Part shown: piece after piece, positions 52,041 through 63,681 of the stretch
How the letters are laid out: every line of letters begins with the position of its first letter
Numbering within the stretch: position 1 is the first letter of the stretch
From: an uncultured Chryseobacterium sp.
Lineage (GTDB): Bacteria > Bacteroidota > Bacteroidia > Flavobacteriales > Weeksellaceae
DNA length: 64,000 nucleotides
Direction of reading: 5' to 3'
Assembly: GCA_913778085.1 (NCBI GenBank)
Contig: CAJYXJ010000072.1
Span: 30,390 to 94,389, forward strand
Program-made: the position numbers and the translations under genes
The notes under the pieces: model-generated
The model's database searches: none
What the model was told of the DNA's origin: nothing
Seen by the model: the letters and a program-made list of their open reading frames with translations, nothing else

Positions 52041-52169
52041 ATATTAAAAACGAATCAATAGGAAAGTTATCCTAAAAATCAAAAACCCGTAAAATCAAAT
52101 GATTTCAGGGGATTCTTGTACCCAGGACCGGGATCGAACCGGTACTCCTAAGAATTGGTGTTTGAGACC
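52041..52169 (-). repeat. Degenerate copy of tRNA-Leu 3' half with its terminator
   Basis: Direct repeat of 52911-53039 across 129 bases, including the last 51 bases of tRNA-Leu (52119-52169, one mismatch). The terminator hairpin arm is damaged here (ACCCGT where the intact copy has CCCCTG). Similarity stops abruptly at the anticodon loop. Confidence 0.85.
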
Positions 52170-52318: not shown

Positions 52319-52861
52319 TTACCAATCAGATTTTTTTTGGTCCTTAAATTTGGATGCGTCGAACAATTGAGAGAAAGAATAATCAACAATTTTTGCCTCT
52401 TTTCCTAAAAATCTTTTTTTAAATGCGTCCCGGCTGTTGGTTAAAGCATATTCTTCCAGGTTTTCGTTACCGTCAGTTCTTATCATTCCGTAATTTAAAT
52501 CGAGGCCCTTAAGCCGGATATTCGTCACGGTAACGCGGTAACGATTATCTTTTATTTCGACGGTATAATTTGCAGAATATTTATTTTGTTCATTGAGATA
52601 TCCTGGTGTCGCCATAAAGCTGCTGCCAGCTCCTTTGTAATCCATTACGAAATCTTTCACAATTCCGGAGAAACCTGTAGGGGATTTTTCATCTATGGTG
52701 ATCTTACCGGATCCGGAAAATATATTGGCTAGATGATTACTATCATTATTTGCAGTGTCATAAATTTTCTGCCAATAAATCTGTCTATTATCTATATTGA
52801 AATTCTGTTGTCCAAAAGCTACGGCTGAAAAAAGAATGAATAAAAAGAAAATCTTTTTCAT
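52319..52861 (-). CDS. Secreted protein of unknown function inside the tRNA-Leu duplication
   Basis: A 180-residue exported protein with signal peptide (1-17, ending AFGQ). The mature part, with IYWQKIYDT and a central NKYSANYTVEIKDNRYRVTVTNIRL, resembles DUF4468-type domains, which is a weak call. It is the only gene in the 870-bp unit between the two tRNA-derived repeats, so it is the cargo of any element there. Confidence 0.75.
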   Translation of the reverse strand: MKKIFFLFILFSAVAFGQQNFNIDNRQIYWQKIYDTANNDSNHLANIFSGSGKITIDEKSPTGFSGIVKDFVMDYKGAGSSFMATPGYLNEQNKYSANYTVEIKDNRYRVTVTNIRLKGLDLNYGMIRTDGNENLEEYALTNSRDAFKKRFLGKEAKIVDYSFSQLFDASKFKDQKKSDW

Positions 52862-52954
52862 GGTATATTTTTAATAATCTATACTAATAAGTTTTTTAAC
52901 TTCAAGAATTATATTAAAACGAATCAATAGGAAAGTTATCCTAAAAATCAAAAT

Positions 52955-52982
52955 CCCCTGAAAATCAAATGATTTCAGGGGA
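52955..52982 (-). terminator. Terminator of tRNA-Leu
   Basis: CCCCTGAAA / TTTCAGGGG hairpin immediately after the tRNA 3' end on the minus strand, followed by ATTTTGATTTTT. Confidence 0.8.
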
Positions 52983-52988
52983 TTTTTG

Positions 52989-53068
52989 TACCCAGGACCG
53001 GGATCGAACCGGTACTCCTAAGAACTGGTGTTTGAGACCAGCGCGTCTACCAATTCCGCCACCTGGGC
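52989..53068 (-). tRNA. tRNA-Leu (anticodon CAA)
   Basis: Minus-strand cloverleaf: acceptor GCCCAGG/CCTGGGT with a G-T end pair, D arm GCGGAATTGGTAGACGC, anticodon stem CTGGT/ACCAG with loop CTCAAAC (anticodon CAA), a short variable arm, and T arm with GGTTCGATCCC. CCA is not encoded. The 3' half is duplicated at 52119-52169. Confidence 0.95.
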
Positions 53069-57616: not shown

Positions 57617-58939
57617 TTACAAAAGTTTGTCCGTTAAGAAAAGTCCGGCCACCGAAAAGTAAATAATTAATCCCGTTACATCCACCAGCGTAGCCACAAA
57701 CGGAGCGGAAGAAGTGGCAGGGTCAAGCTTTAATTTTTTAAGAATAAAAGGAACCATGGAACCCGATAATGTTCCCCAGAGAACGATCATCACCAATGAA
57801 ACTCCTACGCTTAATCCTACAAACGGCCAGTAATCTCCATAGTTGAAAAGCCCGGTCTTATGCCAGATCATAATCCGGAGGAAACCGATGATCCCCAGGA
57901 TTCCTCCGAGAAGCAGTCCGGTAAAAATTTCCTTCCGCATCACATACCACCAGTCTTTCAGTCCGATTTCCTGAAGCGCCATTGCCCGGATGATAAGCGT
58001 AGCCGCCTGGGAACCGGAATTTCCCCCGCTTGAAATAATCAGGGGAACGAACAGGGCCAAGACCACAGCTTTCTGGATTTCATCCTCAAAATATCCCATC
58101 GCAGAAGCGGTCAGCATTTCCGAAAAGAAGAGTATAATCAGCCACATTCCTCTTTTTTTAACCATCTCTATAAGAGAAGTCTGGGTATAGGGAAGGTCCA
58201 GGGCTTCCAATCCCCCGAATTTCTGAATATCCTCAGTATTCTGCTGTTCGATCTGGTCTAAAATGTCGTCAATCGTTACGATGCCTACCAATACTCCGGC
58301 TTCGGTGATAATCGGAAGGGCAGCACGGTCATATTTTTCAAAATACTGTACAGCATCTTCTTTGGTCGTGGTCGTGGTTATCGCTACGAAATGGTTGTCG
58401 GTAATTTCGGAAACCATCGTATCTTCTTCGGCCAGCAGCAGGCTTCCTAAAGCAATATCGTCGATCAGCCGGTTCCTTTCGTCCACCACATACAGGTAAT
58501 TCATGGTTTCCACCTTGCTGCCTACCTTCTTGATCTGCTGAAGGCATCTTTTAATTGTCCACTCCTTACGGATCTGGATATAGTAGGGCGTCATCAGACG
58601 GGCAATGGAGTCGGAATCGTAACCTAATAATTTAAGGGCGATTCTCCGTTCCTGCGGGTTCAGATGGTTGATGGAATATTTAATGAGCTCATCCGGGAAA
58701 TCTTCGAACAATGCCGTCCGGTCATCCGGAGTCATGGCGTTCAGGATCTCGGAAACTTCGTCGCTGCCGATGCTTCTAATGGTTTCTTCCTGGAAATCGG
58801 GGTCCAGGTGGGAAAAAACTTCCGCTTTGTATTCTTTCGGAACTTTCAGGAATGCCAGAAGCCTTTCATCAGCGTGAAGTTCACTGAGGGTTTCGGCGAT
58901 ATCGGCGGGGTTGAATACAAGTTCGTCTTTAGAATTCAA
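57617..58939 (-). CDS. mgtE: Magnesium transporter MgtE
   Basis: A 440-residue magnesium channel. N domain (about 8-120; [20 protein letters not shown]), CBS pair (about 125-245), then five spans from about 270 to 440 with the conserved [20 protein letters not shown]. Cytoplasmic N/CBS domains gate the pore by Mg. I start it at TTG 58939 ([16 protein letters not shown]): the frame is open to a TTG at 58993, but that TTG is the -33 element of a promoter whose -7 box lies inside the extension. Confidence 0.92.
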
Positions 58940-58961
58940 AACGTGATTTTTTAGGGTAGTG

Positions 58962-58993
58962 CAAAAATAATTCAATTTTTTAAAATTGACCAA
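58962..58993 (-). promoter_or_regulatory. Promoter of mgtE
   Basis: Minus strand: TTG at 58993-58991, 21-base spacer, perfect TATTTTTG at 58969-58962. Predicted start about 58956, so an mRNA cannot include the upstream TTG codon. Confidence 0.65.
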
Positions 58994-59038: not shown

Positions 59039-59061
59039 AAGCATCCGGGGTCCGGATGCTT
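59039..59061 (-). terminator. Terminator after the bacteriocin-like pair
   Basis: AAGCATCCGG / CCGGATGCTT perfect ten-pair stem with a three-base loop, followed on the minus strand by TTTTCTG. Confidence 0.88.
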
Positions 59062-59084: not shown

Positions 59085-59228
59085 TTATTCTTCAATACAG
59101 GCGTACGCCACACACATTCTGTTGCAGCACCATCCCACATAACATTGAGAATGGTCCGTACACTTCTGCAATGTACCGCCGTTAATTTTTTCCTGCTCCT
59201 TTCTCGTTAATTTCTTTAGATTTTTCAT
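59085..59228 (-). CDS. GG-leader bacteriocin-like peptide 2, six cysteines
   Basis: A 47-residue peptide. Leader of 18 residues, MKNLKKLTRKEQEKINGG, ends in the double-glycine cleavage site. The 29-residue core (TLQKCTDHSQCYVGWCCNRM...) has cysteines spaced C-x5-C-x4-CC-x3-C-x4-C. Start is ATG 59228; the longer frame overlaps the sister gene. Spacing matches knottins. No transporter or immunity gene is adjacent. Confidence 0.85.
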   Translation of the reverse strand: MKNLKKLTRKEQEKINGGTLQKCTDHSQCYVGWCCNRMCVAYACIEE

Positions 59229-59250
59229 AGCAATATATTTTAAGATCTTA

Positions 59251-59394
59251 TTATACTTCAGGGCAATTGTAGTAAACACATACGTTGTGGCAGCATGAAC
59301 CGCCCGGACATTCAAAATGATCATGACATCTCTGAAGGTTTCCGCCGTTAATTTGCCCCTGTTCTTTACGGGTAAGCTTTTTTAGATTTTTCAT
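59251..59394 (-). CDS. GG-leader bacteriocin-like peptide 1, six cysteines
   Basis: A 47-residue paralogue, not called as its own frame because of its length. Leader MKNLKKLTRKEQGQINGG, core NLQRCHDHFECPGGSCCHNV then CVYYNCPEV, with the same spacing C-x5-C-x4-CC-x3-C-x4-C. The next peptide begins 22 bases after its stop, so both come from one transcript that ends at the terminator at 59039-59061. Bacteroidota 'bacteriocin-like' leaders of this kind are exported by peptidase-containing ABC transporters, none of which is in the window. Confidence 0.85.
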   Translation of the reverse strand: MKNLKKLTRKEQGQINGGNLQRCHDHFECPGGSCCHNVCVYYNCPEV

Positions 59395-59436
59395 AAGAAT
59401 TGATTTTAGTGTGATTAAATATAATAAAAAAAAATT

Positions 59437-59634
59437 AAATTAATCACTATATAATGAAAAATAATAGCCCGTAAAAGATTGTTTTTAAGAAAGATCTGTT
59501 TGGGAATACAGGAATGGGAATTAAAAAGCACCTATACATCGTACCGGTGCTTAAGAAATTTCAATTGAGATAGTTTGAATGAATTGTTATCCCGAAATTA
59601 ATGAAATATTTTAAATTATTCACTAAATAATGAA
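59437..59634. repeat. Two near-palindromic 22-bp sites upstream of the bacteriocin pair
   Basis: AAATTA(A/T)TCACTA(T/A)ATAATGAA occurs at 59437-59458 and 59613-59634 in the same orientation (20 of 22 identical, palindromic core TCACTA..TAATGA). The first lies about 45 bases before the start of peptide 1. Confidence 0.5.
59526..59552 (-). terminator. Terminator between secreted-protein gene and bacteriocin pair
   Basis: AAGCACC / GGTGCTT hairpin followed on the minus strand by TTTTTAAT. It lies about 210 bases past the stop of the gene at 59763 and separates it from the peptides. The remaining gap 59395-59762 contains no gene. Confidence 0.6.
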
Positions 59635-59762
59635 TTTAATCTAAAGAAATTCAATGAGATGCATAACTTTATGTAAAAAGATAATGCTGAATTAACGAAA
59701 TGAAGCTGAAATAAGGTTTACAGCAGATGTAATCATAGAGGTTAATGAAAAGCAGGCACCGT

Positions 59763-60317
59763 CTAAAAACCGGCTACAGCAGCATTCCTTGTCTTTCTGA
59801 ACTGCTTCAGAATTCCTTTGATGGCGCCGTTGGTACCGATCTTTACAGAGTTTGTTGTTGAGCCCAGAAGCCGCATGTTTTTCCTGTAGGTGTCATAATC
59901 GGTTTCGGTAAGAAGATTACCCTGTGCATCAAAGAGTTTCATGCTGACTATAACCTGGTTGGAGAACACATACTTTCCAAGCCCGACCTTAAAATATTTT
60001 ACTTTGGGAACGATGGCGAAATCGGCATCATTATTTATACAGTAATCTGCAATGGTCTTCCGGTCGATGCTGTCAAAGGAAATCTGGGTTTCCGTTTTAA
60101 GCATTTTGTTTTTTCTTTCGCTTAAATTATCCGATACGGCACTGAAAAAAGCGGTATTTGTTGGTTCTTTGATTTCTTCAATATCGGGTTCCACTACAGG
60201 ATTGAAATATAGGACCTTATTGATCTTTTCGCCGGCAGATTTTTGTGCTTTCAGTATGAAAACACCTCCAAGAAGAAGTCCGGTACATAGAATAAAAGTT
60301 AGTTTTTTTCCCATCAT
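59763..60317 (-). CDS. Secreted protein of unknown function
   Basis: A 184-residue exported protein with a signal peptide (about 1-24, ending LKAQ). The region from ADYCINNDADFAIVPKVKYFKVGLGKYVFSNQVIVSMKLFDAQGNLLTET is beta-alpha-beta in look and recalls lipoprotein/CsgG-like 'LpoB' folds, but I cannot name a family. Divergent from rpsO. The ATG at 60317 or the second at 60314 may be used. Confidence 0.65.
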   Translation of the reverse strand: MMGKKLTFILCTGLLLGGVFILKAQKSAGEKINKVLYFNPVVEPDIEEIKEPTNTAFFSAVSDNLSERKNKMLKTETQISFDSIDRKTIADYCINNDADFAIVPKVKYFKVGLGKYVFSNQVIVSMKLFDAQGNLLTETDYDTYRKNMRLLGSTTNSVKIGTNGAIKGILKQFRKTRNAAVAGF

Positions 60318-60486: not shown

Positions 60487-60756
60487 ATGTACTTAACTAC
60501 AGAAAAAAAGCAGGAAATTTTCGCAAAGCACGGAAAATCTGCACAGGACACCGGAAGCGCTGAAGGGCAAATCGCACTTTTCACTTTCAGAATCAACCAC
60601 TTATCTCAGCACTTAAAAGCTAACCGTCACGATTTCAACACTGAGAGATCTCTTGTGAAATTGGTAGGTAAGAGAAAAAGTTTGTTAGATTACCTTAAAA
60701 ACAAAGATATCGAAAGATACAGAGCAATTATTGCTGAATTAGGTTTAAGAAAATAA
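60487..60756 (+). CDS. rpsO: 30S ribosomal protein S15
   Basis: An 89-residue ribosomal protein. MYLTTEKKQEIFAKHGKSAQDTGSAEGQIALFTFRINHLSQHLKANRHD and SLVKLVGKRKSLLDYLKNKDIERYRAIIAELGLRK are the S15 hallmarks. It binds 16S rRNA early in small-subunit assembly. As in many bacteria it precedes pnp, here by 576 bases, and has its own promoter and terminator. Confidence 0.98.
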   Translation: MYLTTEKKQEIFAKHGKSAQDTGSAEGQIALFTFRINHLSQHLKANRHDFNTERSLVKLVGKRKSLLDYLKNKDIERYRAIIAELGLRK

Positions 60757-61268: not shown

Positions 61269-61332
61269 CAGGTAAATTTAGACGAAATATAATCTTAAAA
61301 GCACTCAATACGGAGTGCAACACAAACAATTT

Positions 61333-63681
61333 ATGAGTGTACCTCAAGCAATTACAGAGCTGATTACTCTTGCAGACGGCAGAGAAATCACTATTGAAAC
61401 AGGAAAACTGGCTAAGCAGGCCGACGGATCTGTTGTCGTAAAAATGGGCGGAACCATGCTTTTAGCAACGGTTGTCGCAAACAAAGAAGCAAATCCCGGT
61501 GTGGATTTCCTGCCGTTAACGGTAGATTACAGAGAGAAGTTCTATGCGGGCGGTAAAATTCCCGGAAACTTTTTCAGAAGAGAAGCGCGTCCTTCCGACC
61601 AGGAAATCCTGACGATGCGTCTTGTAGACAGAGTATTAAGACCTTTGTTCCCGGAAGATTTCCACGCGGAAGTTCAGGTGATGATTTCCCTGATCTCTTA
61701 CGACGGACAGTCGATTCCTGATGACCTTGCCGGTCTTGCGGCATCTTCAGCCATTGCGATTACCGATATTCCTTTCAACGGACCCATGTCTGAAGTAAGG
61801 GTGGTAAGAATCAACGGTGAACTTTCCATCAACCCGAATTACGCAGATCTTAAAGATTCCGACCTGGATATTATGGTGGGAGCTACCAAAGATTCCATCG
61901 TGATGGTAGAAGGGGAAATGAAAGAAATCTCCGAACAGGAAATGCTGGAAGCCATTACTTTTGCCCATGCTGAAATCAAGAAGCAGGTGGAAGCGCAGGA
62001 AAGACTGGCTGAAAAAGTAGGAAAATCGTTCCCGAAAAGAGAATACATCCACGAAACTCACGATGAAGCCATCCGTGAAAAAGTTTGGAAAGAAACATAC
62101 GATAAAGTATACGAAGTAGCAAAGACCCCTTCAGGAAAAGAAGAAAGAGCGGAAAAATTCAAAGCGGTACGTGAAGAATTCCTTGCGCAGTATGTAGATA
62201 ATCCTGAGGAGCTGGAACGAGTAACCCCTTTCGTAAAAGTATATTACCACGATGTGGAGAAAGAGGCGATGCGCCAGATGATTTTAAATGAAAAAATCCG
62301 TCTGGACGGTCGTGATCCTGAAACCATCCGTCCGATCTGGAGTGAAATCGATTATTTACCGGGTGCTCACGGATCTGCCGTTTTCACCAGAGGAGAAACG
62401 CAGTCGCTTACAGCAGTAACGCTGGGCTCTATTAAAGATGCCAACATGGTAGACAGCGTGATGGTAAATTATGACGAAAGATTCTTCCTGCATTATAATT
62501 TCCCTCCGTTCTCCACAGGGGAAGCAAGACCTCTAAGAGGAACTTCCAGAAGAGAGGTAGGTCACGGAAACCTTGCTCAGAGAGCATTGGCGAACATGAT
62601 TCCGGAAGAAAATCCATATACGATCAGAATCGTTTCCGATATCCTTGAATCCAACGGTTCGTCTTCCATGGCTACCGTTTGTGCCGGAACCCTGGCGCTG
62701 ATGGACGCCGGGATCCAGATTGCAAAACCGGTTTCCGGAATTGCAATGGGATTGGTAACGGATACCAAAACAGGAAACTTCACCGTATTATCCGATATCT
62801 TAGGGGATGAAGATCACCTTGGAGATATGGACTTTAAAGTAACCGGAACGGCAGACGGAATCACCGCTTGCCAGATGGACATCAAGATCCAGGGTCTGTC
62901 CATGGATATTATGGAGAAAGCCTTAATGCAGGCTAAAGACGGCAGACTGCACATCTTAAACAAGATCACGGAAACCATTGCTGAACCTAGATCCGATGTG
63001 AAACCTCACGCTCCGAAAATGGTGATGATGGAAATCCCTAAAGATTTCATCGGTGCCGTAATCGGGCCTGGAGGAAAAATCATCCAGCAGATGCAGAAAG
63101 ATACCGATACCGTTATTGCCATTGAAGAAATCGGTGAAATCGGAAGAATCGAAATTTCCGGGGTTAGCAGAGAGAAAATCAATGAAGCGATCGCAAAAAT
63201 CAACGAGATTACTTTCGTACCGGTAGTTGGGGAAGTATACAACGGGAAAGTGGTAAAAGTAATGGACTTCGGTGCTTTCGTAGCGATTGCTAAAGGTACG
63301 GAAGGACTTCTTCACATCTCCGAGATCGAATGGTCACGCCTGGATAAGGTTCCTTACAACGAAGGAGATGAAGTGGAAGTGAAGTTCATGGGTTACGATG
63401 ACCGTAAGAAAATGAAACTTTCCAGAAAGGTATTGTTGCCAAGACCTCCTAAAGCGGAAGGGCAGGGAAGACCTGAACGTTCCGACCGACCTGAGCGTTC
63501 TGACCGTCCGAACCGACCTGAAGGCCAGAGAAGACCGGAAGGGCAAAGAAGACCTGAAGGTGACAGAGAAAGAAGGCATGATGGCGAAAGAAGAAATGAC
63601 GGAGATAGAAGACAGGAGAGAGAAAGAAGACCTGAAGGCGATCAGCCGGCAGGAGATCAGAATCCTTCTTCTGAAGAATAA
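61333..63681 (+). CDS. pnp: Polyribonucleotide nucleotidyltransferase (PNPase)
   Basis: A 782-residue 3'-5' exoribonuclease. Two RNase PH domains ([42 protein letters not shown] and [24 protein letters not shown]), a KH domain ([20 protein letters not shown]) and an S1 domain ([20 protein letters not shown]). An extra C-terminal tail of about 75 residues is almost all R, E, P, D and G in short repeats ([11 protein letters not shown]). I use ATG 61333; a GTG at 61315 would add six residues. Main RNA turnover enzyme with no partner gene here. Confidence 0.97.

Follow-up and report, generated by a model that had tools for sequence, protein, structure and literature searches.

Putative knottin-type miniproteins with double-glycine leaders in a tandem array at one chromosomal slot of Chryseobacterium

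Many Chryseobacterium genomes carry, at one conserved chromosomal slot, a tandem array of short genes for peptides that combine a double-glycine leader with a small core built on a fixed frame of six cysteines. Two such genes, P0002 and P0001, lie in the window (the whole 64,000-nucleotide stretch of DNA analyzed here). The products of this lineage-specific array are probably secreted, disulfide-locked miniproteins of 29 residues and of knottin type, exported by a C39 system and oxidized with the help of a VKOR protein. Once the precursors are expressed, an ABC exporter of C39 type, whose gene lies in another part of the genome, would cleave them after the GG and carry the cores out of the cell. 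The six cysteines would then pair as three disulfides outside the cytoplasm, a step in which a VKOR-thioredoxin protein encoded beside one exporter probably assists. The released 29-residue knottin-type miniprotein would most likely act on an outside target (e.g., another microbe or a secreted enzyme).

Most known knottins come from plants, animals, and fungi. A bacterial knottin family, comprising several hundred short sequences found in nature and backed by a plausible genetic setup of array, exporter, and oxidant, would offer a way to study how bacteria fold knotted disulfide peptides, a test of the roles of such peptides between organisms, and a source of new scaffolds. Even if the fold proved to be that of a Dickkopf or WAP module, disulfide peptides inherited vertically as an array in one slot of the core genome would be unusual for genes annotated as "bacteriocin-like."

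The gene pair and its chromosomal slot

The first-pass annotation described two 47-residue open reading frames with leaders ending KINGG and QINGG and 29-residue cores on the common frame C-x5-C-x4-CC-x3-C-x4-C. Both translations agree with this exactly, including the LQ, DH, and E common to the two cores. Each precursor starts MKNLKKLTRKEQ, and its leader comprises 18 residues ending INGG. Where the annotation placed one strong terminator after the pair, there is a strong terminator-like hairpin (59061-59039), which has a predicted RNA fold of -18.7 kcal/mol (z -4.6), and none of 200 shuffles was equally stable. No terminator-like site was found in the gap between the two genes, and it is plausible that P0002 and P0001 share one transcript.

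Table 1. Features of the array slot and its surroundings (positions in the window)
Feature	Position	Strand	Description
mgtE (slot flank)	57617..58993	-	MgtE, MgtE_N, and CBS domains; synteny
Terminator-like hairpin downstream of the pair	59039..59061	-	10-pair stem and T-rich tail
P0001 (second peptide gene)	59085..59228	-	47 aa; leader ...KINGG; core TLQKCTDHSQCYVGWCCNRMCVAYACIEE; type B; NF047798 28.5 bits
Intergenic gap P0002/P0001	59229..59250	-	22 nt
P0002 (first peptide gene)	59251..59394	-	47 aa; leader ...QINGG; core NLQRCHDHFECPGGSCCHNVCVYYNCPEV; type A (CPGGSCC); NF047798 30.6 bits
GTGATTAA	59440..59447	-	About 50 nt upstream of the P0002 start codon; candidate regulatory element only
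184-aa protein gene (slot flank)	59763..60317	-	Signal-peptide-like start (by eye)
rpsO (outer flank)	60487..60756	+	Ribosomal protein S15
pnp	61315-63681		Beyond rpsO

Upstream of P0002, GTGATTAA falls within one arm of an imperfect 19-nt inverted repeat (59400-59418 and 59440-59458; 79%). The motif GTGAWTA is present in 40 of 100 non-redundant regions upstream of first genes, against 1.5 in mononucleotide shuffles, a comparison that is overstated because the upstream regions are related to each other. It sits mostly 51-60 nt ahead of the first start codon; inside arrays it occurs in four of 89 long gaps and in none of 185 short ones. GTGAWTA is only a candidate regulatory element. The Bacteroidota promoter motif TAnnTTTG is unsupported here: of 113 regions upstream of first genes, five contain it, whereas mononucleotide shuffles give 11.8 on average.

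The slot is bounded by mgtE on one side and, on the other, by a gene for a 184-aa protein that matched no Pfam family. All but one of 174 congener genomes (173) have a match to this 184-aa gene, whether the array is present or absent. A search with P0001 (E 1e-3) found matches in 132 of the 174 genomes of the genus, a count in which some matches rest on the leader and some come from genomes with an empty slot (e.g., G005). In all 30 loci taken from that search mgtE adjoins the peptides, and in 29 of them the 184-aa gene also lies within the retrieved stretch. After 120 further stretches were added and L065 was removed (it belongs to the same genome as L185), the survey covered 149 loci from 149 of the 174 genomes, 141 of them with both flanks; empty slots are probably undercounted in this sample. 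G032 is represented in it by its peptide-bearing contig, rather than by the one with the 184-aa gene.

Among the 141 two-flank loci, 111 hold between one and eight copies and 30 hold none. Single copies occur in six loci, two in 26, three in 26, four in 29, five in 15, six in six, seven in two, and eight in one; these numbers are lower bounds, since the open-reading-frame filter passed over two remnants without a leader and at least four members whose starts or leaders are atypical. Nine of the 30 loci without a copy have flanks merely about 27-34 nt apart and represent the empty site, and some zero-copy loci whose gaps measure 200-470 nt may contain decayed genes (all gaps are approximate, measured from the end of the tblastn match).

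Outside the genus, the core family was not seen among the genomes sampled. When 395 genomes sampled from the order, representing 108 genera, were searched with a core-only profile, 29 matched, and every one belongs to the window's own genus. The genus itself was assigned from named relatives in another genome collection, at least 54 of which appear among the matches listed, all of them Chryseobacterium, with an in-frame peptide in 37 of those 54 loci; on this footing the core family appears confined to Chryseobacterium. A full-length profile reaches 156 of 321 genomes of the family-level group in four genera, and its matches in the three other genera lean on the leader. In one of these three genera (loci L268, L269, and L271) tandem leader peptides have cores of the form C-x5-C-x4-CC-x3/4/5-C-x12-C, and neither mgtE nor the 184-aa gene lies within these 3-kb loci; the peptides are perhaps distant kin of the window family. 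A mobile origin was considered and rejected: at E 0.01, P0001 matched none of 72,556 plasmid records and none of 50,697 phage records.

Elsewhere in the window, a 96-nt repeat (52074-52169 and 52944-53039) has copies 91% identical and 870 bp apart. One copy reaches into tRNA-Leu(caa) at 52988-53068 on the minus strand, and no full tRNA is called at the other; between them lies a 180-aa open reading frame (52319-52861) without a Pfam family. The pair looks like the remnant of a tRNA-targeted insertion or a tandem duplication.

Cysteine frame and predicted fold

Because the two window genes are duplicates, conservation across the wider family is the real test of the frame. With a leader-like start and at least three cysteines required, the family comprises 390 peptides, 336 of them distinct. 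Six cysteines are found in 386, five in three, and seven in one, where the additional cysteine sits in the leader. All 386 six-cysteine peptides fit C-x4-7-C-x4-CC-x3/4-C-x4/7/8-C: 285 have the frame of the window cores, 75 have C-x5-C-x4-CC-x4-C-x7-C, and 26 have an altered first or last loop. A search of related genomes for cores of the same spacing, proposed on first reading of the DNA, found the knottin-type frame kept across the genus with small loop changes only. The exact frame is not readily reached by chance: 1 in 200,000 random placements of six cysteines over 29 positions produced it, and by enumeration it accounts for 8 of 475,020 placements. Both window cores and the same 386 peptides have the sequence features of a knottin, namely six cysteines arranged as C-C-CC-C-C and separated by short loops. 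A true knot would also call for disulfides 1-4, 2-5, and 3-6.

The family can be divided by rough labels into type A (CP(G/R)G(S/A)CC or CQGG(S/A)CC), type C (a long last loop), and type B (the remainder), with 86, 86, and 218 members, respectively. Type C is the last gene ahead of mgtE in 83 of its 86 cases. The most frequent arrays are BBC (17), AB (14), BABC (14), ABABC (11), and BBBC (10), and the array looks to be composed of lasting paralogue types.

The core is knottin-like by its frame, and a knottin fold is plausible from modeling. AlphaFold models of 31 residues, built with 63 and 40 family sequences, have mean pLDDT values of 80.0 and 77.5 and low pTM values (0.41 and 0.37). Both contain a helical turn at residues 10-12 and a hairpin (17-19/22-24) that runs from the CC pair to the fifth cysteine. 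Foldseek against the PDB returned four weak matches for P0001 (E 4.5-6.9), namely the cystine-dense peptide 6avd, the squash inhibitor MCTI-A, and two forms of MCoTI. For P0002 it returned seven (E 3.4-9.4): an MCoTI form (1.1 A), the N-terminal region of Dickkopf-4 at rank 2, MCTI-A twice, a scorpion neurotoxin, conotoxin GXIA, and nicastrin. Knottins or cystine-dense peptides make up four of the four matches for P0001 and four of the seven for P0002; all matches have E 3.4 or above and none is significant. Searched against PDB sequences, a core-only profile found trypsin inhibitor 3 (0.016, across just 13 residues), conotoxin GXIA (0.036), and bidentatide (3.7). The full-length profile found scytovirin best (E 0.02), followed by weak matches to Dickkopf-2 (0.35), draxin (0.54), and others.

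The window cores match no Pfam model at E 1. In a scan of 44 family cores, 21 match Conotoxin_I2 at E 1 or below (best 0.0056), two match Carboxypeptidase A inhibitor (E 0.029; 14.6 bits against a cut-off of 25), one matches WAP (0.034), one matches a Dickkopf model (0.18), and single ones match others. The best single E value belongs to DUF7107 (0.0026), which reaches at most 16.2 bits against a cut-off of 24.6 in two rechecked cores. Among ten rechecked cores none passes Conotoxin_I2, Toxin_19, or CarbpepA_inh; the eight that lie outside the window score 12.6-14.6 bits where listed, against cut-offs of 23.2-27.

The main rival to the knottin fold is a Dickkopf- or WAP-like topology, in which the core would be a three-disulfide miniprotein bonded in another pattern, similar to one section of a Dickkopf/colipase- or WAP-type module. 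The predicted hairpin suits such a module, the WAP hairpin sitting in the same place, and Dickkopf proteins, draxin, and WAP all figure among the matches above. They are, however, outnumbered by knottins among the Foldseek and core-only profile matches, and WAP domains have eight cysteines in four disulfides, whereas the window cores have six. This topology is judged less likely than the knottin fold. The knottin reading of the first-pass annotation therefore stands in part: the genus-wide frame, the hairpin in the models, and the few weak structural matches, most of them knottins, speak for it, although an arrangement as in Dickkopf or WAP modules may accommodate the frame as well.

A stronger form of the knottin reading is offered tentatively, as a possibility of nearly equal weight to its contrary. 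Chryseobacterium would have a multigene family of true inhibitor-cystine-knot miniproteins, expanded in the way of venom genes into a tandem array within a single slot of the core genome. C39 transporters would export these knottins and a VKOR system would oxidize them, and they would have arisen in or been acquired by Bacteroidota independently of eukaryotic secretion.

Leader peptides, export, and oxidation

The leader type is known in Bacteroidota, as the first-pass annotation held: both window leaders score above the curated cut-off (23.5 bits) of the NCBIfam model NF047798 leader_Chryseo ("bacteriocin-like protein"), which also matches all 44 scanned family members at E 1 or below. In the window's own genome, 22 different GG-leader peptides were chosen by pattern in loci L006-L035 and L262-L267, one spurious open reading frame being set aside. 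The number of cysteines is four, six, or eight in 21 of the 22 and five in the other, and a loose C-C-CC-C-C pattern occurs in three, the window's two among them. One leader is thus shared in this genome by many unlike cores of disulfide type.

No exporter or disulfide enzyme adjoins the P0002/P0001 pair. The search for a C39-peptidase ABC transporter that the earlier annotation had suggested gave five C39 matches in the genome, none on the window's contig, and the three that were checked are C39-ABC fusions. One lies on contig C69 (L262 641-9058, at most 8.5 kb), where it is accompanied by a VKOR-thioredoxin fusion, an HlyD-like adaptor that scores under its NCBIfam cut-off, and four peptides of this leader type. 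The cores of these peptides are rich in cysteine and unlike one another; one peptide of 53 aa has C-x6-C-x5-CC-x9-C-x5-C. Judging from their leader, the P0002 and P0001 precursors would be served in trans by C39/VKOR machinery of this kind. The C69 region is itself a grasp-with-spasm-like RiPP locus, with maturases of which SPASM is above its cut-off and GRASP under it; graspetides are treated in PMC8939145.

Among congeners, C39 was found in 170 of 174 genomes and VKOR in 162 of 174. The two are 1.26-1.88 kb apart in 40 genomes, which were chosen since both lay on the same contig. None of the 12 genomes lacking VKOR has a P0001 match, versus 132 of the 162 others (Fisher 1e-8), a comparison that ignores phylogeny and includes some matched genomes with an empty slot.

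A core that binds metal as a ribbon or stores it, instead of forming disulfides, could account for six cysteines in 29 residues and for a slot that adjoins the gene of a divalent-cation transporter, mgtE. This explanation is very improbable: the GG leader is of export type, the core has no conserved histidine, unlike cores behind the same leader have even numbers of cysteines, and a VKOR-thioredoxin protein adjoins peptides of the same leader type.

Selection, function, and known systems

The first-pass annotation read the variable cores as toxins or antimicrobials under diversifying selection. The selection part of this claim is rejected. In an orthologue test of 871 reciprocal-best peptide pairs from 242 close genome pairs, dN/dS is 0.07 for the leader, 0.13 for the core minus its cysteines, and 0.01 for mgtE. 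Where core dN/dS is defined (814 pairs) the median is 0.08, and 1% of values exceed 1. A cruder test on 131 close pairs, in which orthologues and others are combined, gave 0.61 for the core and 0.19 for the leader. Both tests required pairs to share cysteine positions, so the invariance of the cysteines is by construction. The cores evolve faster than mgtE yet are under purifying selection. A toxin or antimicrobial role is a guess; given purifying selection, an unchanging position, and paralogue types that persist, a conserved function outside the cell is a better fit than a rapid arms race.

The NCBI name "bacteriocin-like" implies class II bacteriocins that kill relatives. The double-glycine leader and the C39 ABC exporters in the genome agree with that role, as do tandem arrays that differ between species. 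Against it, dN/dS is far under 1, and the slot has no evident immunity gene: the minus strand holds no open reading frame of 40 aa or more at 59395-59762, and the near-universal 184-aa flank is there regardless of the array. Unlike cationic membrane-active peptides, moreover, the cores are on average neutral to acidic, with a mean net charge of -0.3 for type A, -0.9 for type B, and -1.6 for type C (K, R, D, and E counted, starting four residues ahead of the first cysteine). A bacteriocin role is therefore possible but doubtful. Inhibition of the proteases of competitors, hosts, or grazers, in the manner of squash inhibitors, is less probable still. It would accord with the core charge, with purifying selection, and with the squash trypsin inhibitors and Carboxypeptidase A inhibitor among the structural and profile matches, but the trypsin inhibitor 3 match rests on 13 residues and no conserved inhibitory residue was identified in the cores. 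Signaling or another extracellular role takes most of the probability that these two leave.

Among known systems, NF047798 has the same 18-residue leader, but the model spans the leader alone and is silent on core, array, and slot. The leader class is thus already named, whereas the core family, the array, and the slot did not appear in the open-licence literature searched; among the titles and abstracts listed there, none dealt with these peptides or with a knottin from Chryseobacterium. The putative bacteriocin NF047792 CCPGW is similar in the leader region, and 43 of 44 family members match it at E 1 or below (best 6.9e-6); the window peptides score 16.8 and 10.8 bits, far short of its cut-off of 80, and are not members. 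Scytovirin, a cyanobacterial protein, shares part of the spacing (C-x5-C) but lacks a CC pair where it matches, and its two matched stretches each have E above 1 alone. Dickkopf and WAP modules share the C-x5-C and subsequent CC spacing and the hairpin from CC; the window core differs in being free-standing, with six cysteines in 29 residues. Inhibitor cystine knots such as squash trypsin inhibitors and conotoxins resemble the window cores in the predicted hairpin and in the weak structural and profile matches, and conotoxins have the same C-C-CC-C-C frame. The knot of the window cores, which lack a Pfam match, is putative, and where inhibitor cystine knots have a signal peptide, the window peptides have a bacterial GG leader and would leave the cell by C39-type export.
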